A stretch of DNA of 64,000 nucleotides, from the NCBI RefSeq assembly GCF_002797915.1, contig NZ_PGTY01000001.1, forward strand, positions 930,001 through 994,000, written 5' to 3'. Position 1 is the first letter of the stretch; each line of letters opens with the position of its first letter. The position numbers and the translations under genes are program-made. The notes below the pieces were generated by a model. The model was not told the DNA's origin. It saw nothing but the letters and a program-made list of their open reading frames with translations, and ran no database searches. This document shows, in pieces, positions 44,618 through 49,057 of the stretch. This DNA is from Yoonia maricola (GTDB lineage: Bacteria; Pseudomonadota; Alphaproteobacteria; Rhodobacterales; Rhodobacteraceae).

Positions 44618-44826
44618 GATGGTGCTCCACTCAGCGCTTTAACAATTTCAAAAACCAACAAGCCGGCGCAGCCGCAGACAATGATCCAGACCTGCCATTC
44701 CAGACGGGACACCATGAACTCAATCCGGCCCAACCGAACATCGACCTGCGCAAACCAAAAATCCGACACCGGCGGCGGCGCATCACGGCGCGGCTTGCCG
44801 TCCATTTCAACAACATTACGCGCCAT
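44614..44826 (-). CDS. GTA g3.5: small membrane-type protein
   Basis: A 70-residue protein in the g3.5 position, with a charged N-terminal half and one hydrophobic helix (WQVWIIVCGCAGLLVFEIV). The start at 44826 overlaps the portal stop codon by 11 bases; a longer frame upstream is probably not used. Its role in GTA assembly is unclear. The order and size match other RcGTA-like clusters. Confidence 0.82.
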   Translation of the reverse strand: MARNVVEMDGKPRRDAPPPVSDFWFAQVDVRLGRIEFMVSRLEWQVWIIVCGCAGLLVFEIVKALSGAPS

Positions 44827-45997
44827 CGCCAACCTCCAAAGCAGGCAGACCCAGCAGCGCGCGTTTCTCCGCATCGGTCAAAAAATCCGCATCACTCACA
44901 CGCTTCCATTGCGCATCACGCTCCGCAGACAAAGCAGGAATCTGATCCAGATCAGGACGCAGGCTGACATCCTCGCCCGCATAGTCCGACAACCAAACGG
45001 CAATCGCAGACATCACGCGCGTCGCCAGCGGCAACACCGTCAACCGGTAAAATGCGCGGTTCGCCTCCTGGTAATTTGCATAGGTCGCATCGCCGGGAAT
45101 ACCCAACAGCATCGGCGGCACACCGTAAGCAATCGCAATCTCACGCGCTGCGGCCTCTTTAGTCTTCTGAAACTCCATATCCGAAGGCGAGAACCCCATC
45201 GGCTTCCAATCAAGGCCGCCCTCCAACAACATCGGCCGCCCCGCATTGCGCGCGCCCTGATGCTGGCTCTCCATCTCATCCAAAAGCCGGGCATATTGAT
45301 CATTGCTCAAGGCCGACTGACCATCCGCCCCGCGATATACAATCGCACCAGACGGACGAGCCGCATTGTCCAACAAAGCCTTCGACCACCGCGAGGCTGC
45401 ATTATGCACATCGATGGCCGAGGCCGCCGCCTGCAAAGCCGAAAACCCATAGTGATCATCTTGCGGATGAAAGCTCTTGATATGGCAAATCGGGCTCAAC
45501 CCTTCTGTTACTTGAAAGCGATGCTTGCGGCCATTCACCATATACTCATAGCCAACGGGCCAGCCATCTGCCCCCGGCACAACAGACATCCGATCAGAGC
45601 GCAGCACATGCATCTCAACCGGCAGCGCATCGTCGGCCACTGCCTCCAGATACCCATTCCCTGTCAGCAAAACCTGCCCAAACAAAGCCTCGAGCAACTC
45701 CGCCCGGCCCTGCCCCGCATTAGGGCGTGCCAACAACGCCTGCACCGGATGCGTCTCATAACGACGATCCGCATCCTGCAACACAATTGGCAAAGCAGCG
45801 GCGGCCTCAGCAATCAGTTTCACCGCACGAAAGCCAATCGGATTGGCCGAAAATCCAGCCTTCGTCAGCGACACAACATCGCGCGGCGACCAGGCAACAC
45901 GACCGGCACTAGACATCGCCATCACACGCCCCGTGGCCGAAGCTTTCACCTCAACCGGGGCCGCATCTGGCTTGGTACGGTTTAAAAATTCAAACAT
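44816..45997 (-). CDS. GTA g3: portal protein
   Basis: The 393-residue HK97-type portal that forms the DNA entry ring. Family segments: SPRDVVSLTKAGFSANPIGF, ALLARPNAGQGRAELLEALF, GQVLLTGNGYLEAVAD, LKWKPMGFSPSDMEF-like material and GVPPMLLGIPGDATYANYQE, all typical. It lies 112 bases after the large terminase, a comparatively wide and AT-rich gap. Confidence 0.95.
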   Translation of the reverse strand: MFEFLNRTKPDAAPVEVKASATGRVMAMSSAGRVAWSPRDVVSLTKAGFSANPIGFRAVKLIAEAAAALPIVLQDADRRYETHPVQALLARPNAGQGRAELLEALFGQVLLTGNGYLEAVADDALPVEMHVLRSDRMSVVPGADGWPVGYEYMVNGRKHRFQVTEGLSPICHIKSFHPQDDHYGFSALQAAASAIDVHNAASRWSKALLDNAARPSGAIVYRGADGQSALSNDQYARLLDEMESQHQGARNAGRPMLLEGGLDWKPMGFSPSDMEFQKTKEAAAREIAIAYGVPPMLLGIPGDATYANYQEANRAFYRLTVLPLATRVMSAIAVWLSDYAGEDVSLRPDLDQIPALSAERDAQWKRVSDADFLTDAEKRALLGLPALEVGDGA

Positions 45998-46109: not shown

Positions 46110-47510
46110 TCAAAGCCCACGAATACTGGGTTTTCGCCACTTCGCGGCGGGCTCAATCATCAGATCATACAATGCCCAAACCAGTGCATCGACACGATCC
46201 GGCGAGCCTGTGCCTTCAAAACCACGGCTTGTCATCTGCGCCATCTGATCCTCAAGGTCAGACAACCCCCGCACATGGCTCACGCGACCTTGTTCGTAAA
46301 GCGCCGCAACCGGTTCAGCCCGCGCGACCTTGCCCTTGGTGGCATGCACCGACCGATACGGCACCATCGCATCAACCCCGCGCAACACAGCCTCAACCAT
46401 ATCGCCACCCTGATTAACCTCGGCCACCAACCGATCCGCCCCATGCCTGCGCATCGCAGCAATCGCAGCTTCGGCCCAAGCCGTGGGACGCGCCGCCGAC
46501 ATGCTGGCATCTTCCAGCACCACCGCATGCCAATCACACACATCACCCTGCATACTGATACCCGCAACGATAATCCCACACGCATCAGATCCTGCGTGCG
46601 ACGTCCCTGGCGGATCAATCGCCACGACGATACGGTTCAACGGCGGGGCTTCAGCTACCTGACAGCGTGCCAAATCCGCGTCCGTCCAAAGCGCACCCTC
46701 CACCTCTGTCAGCATCAGGCCTTCCATCTCCTGACGGCCCAAAGATGTCCCGCCATAACGCACCTCAATCTCTTTCAGAAAACTTGTCGCCAAATTCGCC
46801 CGGTTCGCCTGCGTCGGCGCATGGGTGTTGACGGTCGTATCCAATTCCAGCAAATCGCGCAGCATCTGTGACTTGCGGGGCGTCGTCGTGACACAAGCGC
46901 GCGGACGATCCCCCAAGCGCAAAGCAAACTGCAGCATATCCCACGCCTCTTCCGCCTTACGCCACTTTGCCAATTCATCGGCCCACACCGCATCAAACTG
47001 GGGGCCACGCAAACTATCGGGGTCATGGGCCGAAAACACCTGCGCCTCCGCCCCATTAGGCCAAATCAGCAAACGACGGCCCGCAATCCACTGAGGACGG
47101 CGATCCGGCGGACAGACAGACAAGATACCGCTATCACCAAACACCATGACCTCACGCGCCTGATCCATGGTTTCACCCACCAAAGCCACACGACGGGCGG
47201 TACCGGGCGCATGCGGCACAGCCCCCTCTACCATCTTGCGAACCCACTCAGCGCCAGCGCGGGTTTTCCCCGCACCACGTCCGCCCAAAATCACCCAGGT
47301 CCGCCAGTCACCGCTCGGCGCTATCTGATGCGGCATCGCCCAAAAGTCGAACAGATAAGGCAAGCTCGCCAACTGCTCCGGTGTCAGCGTCTCCAGAAAC
47401 TGCCTCTGCCAAGAGGCTTCGGCGGATGCGATCAAGTCTGCACCCGATATCAAACCGGATTTCATCATAATCGATAGCATCTGCGTCGACGTCGGTTCCG
47501 GTTTTTGCAT
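46110..47510 (-). CDS. terL: GTA g2: large terminase subunit
   Basis: The 466-residue packaging motor and nuclease. The Walker A motif is GGRGAGKTR (residues 76-84), Walker B is in FDAVWADELAKW, and the C-terminal nuclease acidic clusters include VVAIDPPGTSHAGSDACGI and MVEAVLRGVDAMVPY. Conserved TLTPEQLASLPYLFDFWAMP near residue 41 shows the coding sequence must extend well upstream of the ATPase domain. The 5' end overlaps g1 in another frame by about 200 bases as called; internal ATGs (residues 11, 15, 16) would shorten the overlap only slightly. Confidence 0.95.
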   Translation of the reverse strand: MQKPEPTSTQMLSIMMKSGLISGADLIASAEASWQRQFLETLTPEQLASLPYLFDFWAMPHQIAPSGDWRTWVILGGRGAGKTRAGAEWVRKMVEGAVPHAPGTARRVALVGETMDQAREVMVFGDSGILSVCPPDRRPQWIAGRRLLIWPNGAEAQVFSAHDPDSLRGPQFDAVWADELAKWRKAEEAWDMLQFALRLGDRPRACVTTTPRKSQMLRDLLELDTTVNTHAPTQANRANLATSFLKEIEVRYGGTSLGRQEMEGLMLTEVEGALWTDADLARCQVAEAPPLNRIVVAIDPPGTSHAGSDACGIIVAGISMQGDVCDWHAVVLEDASMSAARPTAWAEAAIAAMRRHGADRLVAEVNQGGDMVEAVLRGVDAMVPYRSVHATKGKVARAEPVAALYEQGRVSHVRGLSDLEDQMAQMTSRGFEGTGSPDRVDALVWALYDLMIEPAAKWRKPSIRGL

Positions 47511-47727
47511 GAAATCTATCCTCAGCAGAGATCACCTTGAGGTGCGCTGCATGTAACTCGTTTAACTTGTTGACGACTTCTTTGATGCTCACGTCTTCGC
47601 CTTCGCGACACGCGGTAGTCATCTGCTCCAGCAGCTTCCGAATATCGCGTGATAACGCATCCACCTCAGCCAGCCGTTCAGCTGCCAAGTCAGAGGCACT
47701 TGGCCTCTCATCATTCATTTCATTCAT
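47308..47727 (-). CDS. terS: GTA g1: small terminase subunit
   Basis: A 139-residue protein, first gene of the cluster. RcGTA g1 has been reported to work as the small terminase that recruits DNA to TerL in a non-sequence-specific way. Sequence features: acidic, helical (LAAERLAEVDALSRDIRKLL, NKLNELHAAHLKVISAEDRF, DIGCRLDRIRRSLLAEAV). The start could be at 47727 or three codons later. The 3' half overlaps terL in a different frame. The CtrA-type box lies upstream. Confidence 0.88.
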   Translation of the reverse strand: MNEMNDERPSASDLAAERLAEVDALSRDIRKLLEQMTTACREGEDVSIKEVVNKLNELHAAHLKVISAEDRFHAKTGTDVDADAIDYDEIRFDIGCRLDRIRRSLLAEAVSGDADTGAVGELALSVRLLGDAASDSAER

Positions 47728-47812
47728 TGTAAATTCAGACCTGTAAGGGAACTTCCGTTACGGTCGAGCGGCAAGGATCATGTTCACCGATCCCAGTCTT
47801 CTAGCAGCGACA

Positions 47813-47841
47813 AATTACCGCAATTACACATCAACTGTCAA
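47813..47841 (-). promoter_or_regulatory. Possible GTA cluster promoter
   Basis: On the minus strand there is an exact TTGACA (complement of 47836-47841) followed after 17-18 bases by a poor -10 match (TAATTT). It lies about 100 bases upstream of g1 and about 30 bases downstream of the CtrA-type box. A strong -35 with weak -10 would suit an activator-dependent promoter, but the call is tentative. Confidence 0.3.
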
Positions 47842-47871
47842 CCCAACTAGACAGGCTCCACGCACTGTGAA

Positions 47872-47886
47872 TTAACGGTTGGTTAA
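47872..47886. promoter_or_regulatory. CtrA-type box (TTAA-N7-TTAA) upstream of the GTA cluster
   Basis: TTAACGGTTGGTTAA is an exact match to the full CtrA consensus TTAA-N7-TTAA, within the longer dyad ATTAAC-GGTTG-GTTAAT. On the minus strand it begins TTAACC, the common CtrA half-site. It lies 145 bases before the g1 start and 14 bases after the mltG stop codon. CtrA is required for GTA expression in Rhodobacter capsulatus. Confidence 0.65.
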
Positions 47887-47899
47887 TAATATCAGAGAC

Positions 47900-49057
47900 T
47901 TACCCGTCGTTGGCACGTTCTGCTTCAATCTGGCGCCACACGGCAACGTTACTGTTATGGTCTTCCAGATTTGTGGCAAAAGCGTGCCCACCCGTACCGT
48001 CAGCCACGAAGAAAATATAATCCGTCGTATCAGGGTTTAATGCCGCTTCAATAGCGGCCTGACCGGGGTTTGCAATCGGTGTTGGCGGCAAACCTTCGAT
48101 GACATAGGTATTCCATGGCGTTGCACCACGCAACTCGCTCTGGCGCAGGCCACGACCCAAAACACCTTCACCTTGAGTAATACCATAGATTACAGTCGGG
48201 TCGGTTTGCAGGCGCATGCCGCGGTTCAGGCGATTGACAAATACACTGGCCACCTGACGACGCTCATCGCGAATGCTGGTCTCTTTCTCGATGATACTGG
48301 CAAGGATCAATGCCTCTTCAGGTGTCTCCAACGGCAGGCCATTCGCGCGGTTGTCCCAGGCCTCGTCCAAGATCACCGCTTGCGCTTCTTGCATGCGGGT
48401 GAGTATCGATGAAACCGTCTCACCATCAGAAATCTCATAGTCGCGCGGGGCCAGCGACCCTTCAGCAGGCGGCTCCGTCACATCGGCTTGCAAAATATCG
48501 ATCTGGCTCAAAGCGGTCATCGTCTGCCAACTGGTCGCACCTTCCGCGATAACAACCCGGAAAGTGGCCCCACCGTCCGCCTTCACCTCTTGATAAGCAG
48601 CAGGTGGTTCCTCATCGGACACCACAAAACCCGCCAGTTCTACAAATTCATTCGTCGCGGGATCAAGTTCGCGCACATCAACAATCGTACGATTAATCCC
48701 GACACGATATATTACTTCCGCACCGCAGGTATTGCGCCCACCACGGGTGATAATGTCCACAATCTCTTCCATGGACGCCGCCTCTGGCACCCGGAACCGG
48801 CCTTGCTTCAGCAGACCGGATTTTTCTGTATAATCCGCACCAACCTCGAAAATGAAAGCCGACGAAATCGCACCCTGATCAACAAGATCAGCCGTCACAC
48901 GAGACATGGTCCCCCCGCCGGGCACCTCAAAACAAATCGCGGCCTCCAGCGGGCCTGCAGCAGAATACTGGCGGGTTCCCCATGCCACAACGCCAGCCAC
49001 CAGAAACAGGCCAACAATCAGAAACGTAAACGCATTTGACGCAATATGGCGCCACAT
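47900..49057 (-). CDS. mltG: Endolytic murein transglycosylase MltG
   Basis: Membrane-bound lytic transglycosylase that cuts nascent glycan strands. The 385-residue protein has an N-terminal anchor helix (about residues 10-30, AFTFLIVGLFLVAGVVAWG), a LysM-like region and the YceG catalytic domain with the catalytic Glu in LASIIEKETSIRDERRQVAS, VFVNRLNRGMRLQTDPTVIY and PWNTYVIEGLPPTPIANPG. Its start overlaps the fabF stop by one base, the conserved fab-mltG arrangement. Confidence 0.95.
   Translation of the reverse strand: MWRHIASNAFTFLIVGLFLVAGVVAWGTRQYSAAGPLEAAICFEVPGGGTMSRVTADLVDQGAISSAFIFEVGADYTEKSGLLKQGRFRVPEAASMEEIVDIITRGGRNTCGAEVIYRVGINRTIVDVRELDPATNEFVELAGFVVSDEEPPAAYQEVKADGGATFRVVIAEGATSWQTMTALSQIDILQADVTEPPAEGSLAPRDYEISDGETVSSILTRMQEAQAVILDEAWDNRANGLPLETPEEALILASIIEKETSIRDERRQVASVFVNRLNRGMRLQTDPTVIYGITQGEGVLGRGLRQSELRGATPWNTYVIEGLPPTPIANPGQAAIEAALNPDTTDYIFFVADGTGGHAFATNLEDHNSNVAVWRQIEAERANDG

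Follow-up and report, generated by a model that had tools for sequence, protein, structure and literature searches.

The promoter in front of g1, the first structural gene of the GTA cluster of Yoonia maricola, carries a CtrA-type box, TTAA-N7-TTAA, at a place that is kept in many relatives. Comparison of these relatives leads us to regard the box as a likely operator through which CtrA acts directly on the structural promoter of the GTA, beside the CtrA input via gafA, and as an element that was probably lost in Rhodobacter. GTA producers lyse, and the wiring of this switch to host signals therefore matters. The accepted model was derived from R. capsulatus, and in it CtrA reaches the GTA cluster only through gafA.

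The box and the g1 promoter

Direct reading of the window (the whole stretch of 64 kb that was analysed) places the box, TTAACGGTTGGTTAA, at 47872-47886; in the direction of transcription (minus strand) its sequence is TTAACCAACCGTTAA and spans -159 to -145 relative to the g1 ATG. The preliminary description had reported an agreement with TTAA-N7-TTAA at every specified base and a location in the non-coding gap before g1. Both statements are confirmed, the gap between mltG and g1 extending from 47728 to 47899 (172 bp). With two TTAA half-sites separated by 7 bp the box has the form of a full CtrA site, and it agrees with nine of the ten positions of TTAAC-N6-TTAAC, the second half-site being TTAAT and not the TTAAC that is usual at ctrA and gafA. 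TTAA-N7-TTAA occurs once in the window where 0.24 occurrences are expected from dinucleotide shuffles, and 21 of 100 such shuffles contain at least one; the lone match is thus within chance and by itself proves little. A chance match, which the window alone allows, was rejected on the cross-genome comparison, and it is this comparison among relatives, not the single match in the window, that places the box beyond chance.

Table 1 Features of the GTA promoter region and adjoining genes (window coordinates)
Feature	Position	Strand	Remarks
CtrA-type box TTAACCAACCGTTAA	47872..47886	-	half-sites 47883-47886 and 47872-47875, 11 bp apart; conserved position; matrix score 14.7 bits
-35 element TTGACA of the GTA structural promoter	47836..47841	-	TTGAC conserved in aligned relatives
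Probable -10 element TAATTT	47812..47817	-	inferred from spacing and alignment
GCTAGA, near-invariant in the window's genus, at the inferred transcription start	47800..47805	-	alignment
g1 5' leader with conserved segment CTCGAC-GTAACGGAAG and short predicted hairpin	47728..47799	-
g1, probable small terminase, first GTA structural gene	47308..47727	-	139 aa; named by position
g2, probable large terminase	46110..47510	-	ORF as listed
g3, portal protein, relative of RcGTA Rcc01684	44816..45997	-	6tba, E 5.6e-186
mltG-like gene upstream of the gap, same direction as g1	47900..49057	-	synteny in relatives
IHF-consensus-like site TATCAGAGACTTA	47890..47902	+	exact; 3 bp from the box, overlaps the mltG stop codon

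The gene order mltG-g1-g2-g3 and an RcGTA-like portal, whose closest solved relative is Rcc01684 of RcGTA, identify an RcGTA-type gene cluster. The upstream gene we take to be mltG from its sequence and position, and g2 is presumed to encode the large terminase from its position and from motifs. Its true start is probably further downstream than that of the listed open reading frame, which overlaps g1. The g2 protein had no match in NCBIfam, and the g1 protein had none in Pfam or NCBIfam.

Counted from first base to first base, the -35 element follows the box at a distance of 45 bp, with 30 bp between the two elements. A sigma-70 scan by strict rules found no promoter, including no -10 element at g1. 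From the spacing, transcription presumably starts near 47805, close to the start-site region of R. capsulatus (76-125 bp upstream of g1), and the box would then span about -81 to -67. Its centre near -74 is further upstream than that of a CtrA site overlapping the -35 element, which counts against an operator. Elsewhere in the window's genome the combination TTGAC-GCTAGA was found at one other place, with no excess over a reversed control. The g1 leader consists, in this order, of GCTAGA, a hairpin with a loop of variable length, the conserved segment CTCGAC-GTAACGGAAG and TTACAGG; four of the six predicted pairs of the hairpin showed changes on both sides among 18 leaders, at a weak consensus energy of -1.76 kcal/mol. 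A search of Rfam gave one match, far below threshold.

Conservation of the box among relatives

The g1 protein was detected in 53 of 56 genomes of the window's genus and in 163 of 295 genomes of a family sample with about one genome per genus, 161 of them outside the window's genus. We analysed 139 loci (L001-L139), of which 51 came from the genus and 88 from the 161 genomes outside it. Twenty-two loci without an mltG match were dropped, which left 117 spacers (48 genus, 69 family); anchoring on TTGAC with a GCTAGA-like word behind it gave 82 spacers (40 genus, 42 family), and removal of near-duplicates resulted in 74 non-redundant ones (32 genus, 42 family).

Exact TTAA-N7-TTAA was present in 9 of the 74 spacers, a count from related genomes and not from independent samples, as are all those that follow; the best other spacing between 0 and 25 gave two, and dinucleotide shuffles had a mean of 0.18 and a maximum of 3. 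With at most one mismatch the pattern was found in 36 of the 74, against 18 for the best other spacing and a shuffle mean of 3.4 (maximum 7). None of the 256 pairs of A/T four-letter words at any of 26 spacings exceeded nine exact occurrences in these 74 spacers, and the pair that reached nine as well, TTAA-N8-TAAT, represents the same element in an overlapping register. The result does not hinge on the anchor: within the first 150 bp after mltG at least seven of the eight bases were matched at spacing N7 in 53 of all 117 spacers, at N6 in 13, at N8 in 6 and at N3 in 18, and 9 of the 35 spacers of the unanchored remainder had such an N7 match. Among the anchored spacers the match was present in 24 of 40 from the genus and in 19 of 42 from the family. 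Conservation is thus partial, 64 of the 117 spacers having no match of seven bases in this 150-bp stretch.

In an alignment of 43 genus spacers the columns of the box are shared just behind the mltG stop codon and the seven inner bases vary; seven rows have all eight specified bases and many others have six or seven. The position is equally restricted. Within the non-redundant set, 16 of the 18 genus matches of at least seven bases start between -44 and -46 relative to TTGAC, and 15 of the 20 matches from other genera between -55 and -58; of the 82 exact TTAA words of this set, 38 share one and the same of 11 helical phases. The box is therefore shifted by about 11 bp between the window's genus and the other genera. 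This amounts to one turn of the helix, a shift that would be expected if the bound protein must stay on its face of the DNA. The comparison of mltG-g1 spacers with the same synteny, which the preliminary description had suggested as a check, thus turned out in its favour: many members of the genus keep the box at a fixed place, and many of the wider family keep it roughly one turn of the helix more upstream.

By eye, a palindrome resembling CCGTACGG often comes after the second half-site in other genera (L080, L097, L099, L114, L134 and more), some 30-40 bp before TTGAC, and a CG-ACGG word similar to it stands between -35 and -10. Both are possible candidates for GafA sites.

Likeness of the box to CtrA-type sites at ctrA and gafA, and its spacing genome-wide

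CtrA is encoded in 55 of the 56 genus genomes, the copy of the window's genome being 74% identical to the query. All 30 ctrA promoters that were read (of 55) carry, between -62 and -65 relative to the start codon, a site that matches at least seven of the eight bases, four of these sites being exact; most of these sites are GTAAC-N6-TTAAC, and that of the window's genome is GTAACGTGTAATTAAC. gafA genes were found via DUF6456 in all 56 genus genomes, and 26 of the 31 promoters read (of 56) have [GT]TAA-N7-[GT]TAAC. From 37 distinct sites at ctrA and gafA promoters, picked because they match and including no g1 site, a matrix of ten columns was built. The window's box reaches 14.7 bits, inside the range of the training sites (10.2-18.6) and near its low end (10th percentile 14.4, median 17.7). 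A score above the 99th percentile of mononucleotide-shuffled spacers was obtained for 17 of 40 anchored spacers of the genus and 13 of 42 of the family; 23 and 29, respectively, stayed below this threshold. In the genus, the fifth base is C in seven, T in six and G in one of the first half-sites, and T in seven and C in four of the second.

The spacing is also over-represented in the whole genome, 3-4-fold: of 177 TTAA pairs with spacings of 0-20, 27 have spacing 7 (P about 1e-7, uniform null), and among the first 100 of the 177 pairs listed 17 have it, the next highest spacing having 7. A control with the backwards pattern AATT-N7-AATT gave 25 places in the genome versus the 27 of TTAA-N7-TTAA; this near-equality is misleading because AATT pairs are commoner overall (522 vs 177 at spacings 0-20), and the spacing test is the better one for enrichment. 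Intergenic positions account for 22 of 25 examined TTAA-N7-TTAA sites versus 7 of 20 AATT-N7-AATT sites, two of the 27 and five of the 25 places being outside this count; we do not use this excess as evidence since TTAA, which contains a stop codon, is under-represented within genes. Neighbouring genes of N7 sites include one for a chemotaxis-receptor-like protein, whose matches stayed under the curated cut-offs, and others for a Tad-like and a PAS-domain protein; further neighbours belong to metabolism, for example those for isocitrate dehydrogenase and a cyclopropane-synthase-like protein. Chemotaxis, Tad and PAS-domain proteins are of kinds that are under CtrA control elsewhere; for Tad this is stated in the available text of PMC6473078. 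Matches to the family libraries did not confirm an identity as DivL for the PAS-domain gene beside one of the sites. In one gap (L177), between a YicC-like gene and that of a PAS_5-domain protein weakly like MopJ, two TTAA-N7-TTAA sites are present (G000:C1:730574 and 730611).

The gafA promoter of the window's genome (L249) reads TTAACAGAAATGTGGC where the nearest relatives, L241 and L236, have TTAAC-N6-GTAAC; one half-site at gafA has therefore been lost in the window's species, and the box at g1 may carry more regulatory weight there. The direct CtrA input to the cluster that the preliminary description had suggested gains support as far as the site is concerned, which is conserved and resembles the sites at ctrA and gafA of the same genus; that CtrA is the protein which binds it, and activation the effect, we infer.

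The GTA promoter of R. capsulatus and other Rhodobacter

The cluster promoter of R. capsulatus is bound by GafA and, in gel shifts, not by CtrA (Fogg 2019, PMC6363796). This binding supports the earlier background statement that GafA drives the cluster. CtrA control of the cluster is accordingly indirect in R. capsulatus, which we count against an operator at g1. We identified the R. capsulatus genome of our set as most probably G451, the portal of which is 100% identical to the RcGTA chain over 377 residues. All four tested sequences derived from primers (PMC6854486) are present at its locus L267, and the one from upstream of g1 was found in none of 16 other loci. A further genome considered as a relative of R. 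capsulatus, G332, shares one primer sequence and was rejected, its genus (two genomes) not being that of R. capsulatus.

What is new here is that the R. capsulatus GTA promoter has no such box: the matrix score of its spacer is -4.0, and a terminator-like hairpin stands right behind mltG. The portal was found in 17 of 18 genomes of Rhodobacter, and all 17 spacers, that of R. capsulatus included, were read. The exact box is present in none, and a match of seven bases in one (L282, at -56); compared with 19 of 42 in other genera this difference has P = 0.005 in Fisher's test, which makes no correction for kinship. Since the promoter used in the gel shift lacks the box, the negative result does not carry over to the window's species, and the absence of the box in Rhodobacter may explain why direct CtrA control was unseen in R. 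capsulatus. We infer that this absence reflects a loss in Rhodobacter rather than a gain elsewhere.

Directly behind the GTA start site, and before g1, the putative R. capsulatus locus also has a terminator-like hairpin that includes a run of T (L267, 2120-2143), and similar sequences were seen by eye in other Rhodobacter loci; a terminator scan of L267 gave five such sites in 4.2 kb at 3.4 expected, which is weak taken alone. By analogy, GafA might act by anti-termination here too, because it has a DUF6456 domain that is also present in Caulobacter, where GafZ is an anti-terminator.

Discussion

We assume that CtrA, probably in its phosphorylated form, would bind both TTAA half-sites, which lie one turn of the helix from each other and span about -81 to -67 relative to the presumed start, and that bound CtrA would help RNA polymerase jointly with GafA acting at the core promoter. 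CtrA also drives gafA, and the cluster would accordingly stand under a coherent feed-forward loop in which CtrA acts on gafA, and CtrA together with GafA on g1; the Rhodobacter lineage, including R. capsulatus, would have lost the site and kept the gafA route only. A tentative extension, to which we give less than even weight, is that direct CtrA control is ancestral in Rhodobacteraceae, that the loss in R. capsulatus is derived, and that the balance has possibly shifted to the g1 box in the window's species, where this box is complete but gafA retains a single CtrA half-site.

IHF and GafA are the main rivals to CtrA for the box. A use of the box by the DnaA-like N-terminal domain of GafA, or by IHF as at the Caulobacter GTA promoter, appears unlikely to us, although it has points in its favour. 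In R. capsulatus the N-terminal domain of GafA bound fragments that flank the core promoter on either side; it binds this promoter, however, even though the box is absent there, and the N7 spacing of the box recurs in ctrA promoters. IHF is described, in the text available of PMC11150451, as binding upstream at the Caulobacter GTA promoter and co-activating it, and by analogy it may act at the present g1 promoters as well. IHF-like sites are indeed enriched in the spacers: exact words occur in 7 of 74 versus 0.23 expected and words with one mismatch in 25 of 74 versus 7.0 (mononucleotide shuffles). WATCAR-N4-TTR has no exact match inside the box, the only one of the window's spacer adjoining it at 47890-47902, and the exact matches stand at -61 (that of the window, adjacent to the box), at -29, at -25 and, in four loci of other genera, at -17. 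The matches with one mismatch begin in the genus at -65 to -61, beside the box, in 10 of 19 cases, the largest group, and at -50 to -41 in 7 of 19; in the family 7 of 26 begin at -60 to -51, and some overlap the box region. In L122 a TTAA match of seven bases at -26 covers an exact IHF-like match. We regard IHF as the less likely owner of the box, though in some spacers overlaps with one mismatch exist.

If CtrA does bind, it could also repress or time the promoter, for example by keeping packaging off until CtrA phosphorylation changes. The box is located upstream of the -35 element and not over it, and the transition of R. capsulatus from assembly and packaging to adornment and lysis is under the control of the phosphorylation state, according to the available text of PMC9638019. 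CtrA, however, promotes GTA expression in R. capsulatus; ctrA, cckA and chpT mutants of D. shibae showed slightly but consistently lower expression of the cluster in the accessible part of PMC4046655; and a position some 30 bp ahead of the -35 element would fit upstream activation better than occlusion. We consider repression or timing quite improbable. The box might finally be no specific protein site at all, TTAA-N7-TTAA being read by coincidence in A/T-rich filler, in an upstream promoter element or next to the mltG terminator. A single match within chance, and a terminator-like hairpin that by eye follows the box directly in some relatives of the alignment, speak for such a view, but word, spacing and position are each specific and dinucleotide shuffles, other A/T words and other spacings all fall short, which makes it highly improbable. 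An operator for CtrA thus remains the reading that we favour.

Should a direct operator be common in Rhodobacteraceae, the accepted model would describe one lineage. Elsewhere the circuit would be a feed-forward loop with the potential to filter noise and to link packaging with the phosphorelay, and the missing site would account for the negative gel shift of R. capsulatus.

Comparison with known systems

CtrA sites have been predicted at gafA and other GTA-associated genes, and half-sites at late RcGTA loci, in the available texts of PMC4046655, PMC6473078, PMC2877005, PMC9437464, PMC11655674 and PMC9638019; a passing remark in PMC11655674 places GTA production in Rhodobacterales under direct control of CtrA. 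Our literature search, in the texts it covered, found no description of a conserved CtrA box at the structural promoter nor of its absence in Rhodobacter; supplementary tables (e.g. the 101 predicted CtrA promoters of D. shibae, PMC4046655) and most subscription papers lay outside its scope, and an earlier listing is possible.

The GTA promoter of Caulobacter resembles that of the window in having upstream protein sites before the core promoter; according to the accessible text of PMC11150451 these are sites for GafY and IHF (the proteins described being GafY, IHF and GafZ), and the Caulobacter GTA is not under CtrA control as far as the available part of PMC9632790 goes. A DUF6456 gene is present in the window's genome and, among 14 control genomes, in Caulobacter only. 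In phages of Alphaproteobacteria TTAA-N7-TTAA precedes phage genes and is bound by CtrA in gel shifts (PMC9437464, text available in part); these are phages and not GTAs. The autoregulatory site of ctrA has the spacing in common with the box, but is nearer to the start codon and usually has TAAC in both halves instead of the TTAAT end of the box. The R. capsulatus GTA promoter, which is controlled by GafA, shares the mltG synteny, the TTGAC -35 element and a GCTAG word at similar spacing, and differs in that TTAA-N7-TTAA is absent and CtrA binding was not found by gel shift (PMC6363796). The CtrA site of R. capsulatus gafA (Fogg 2019, PMC6363796, as far as accessible), TTAAC-N6-GTAAC or TTAA-N7-GTAA, was demonstrated by gel shift and mutation, whereas the g1 box is known from its sequence; the former lies upstream of a GTA control gene and the latter at the structural cluster, and both have the same spacing of half-sites.
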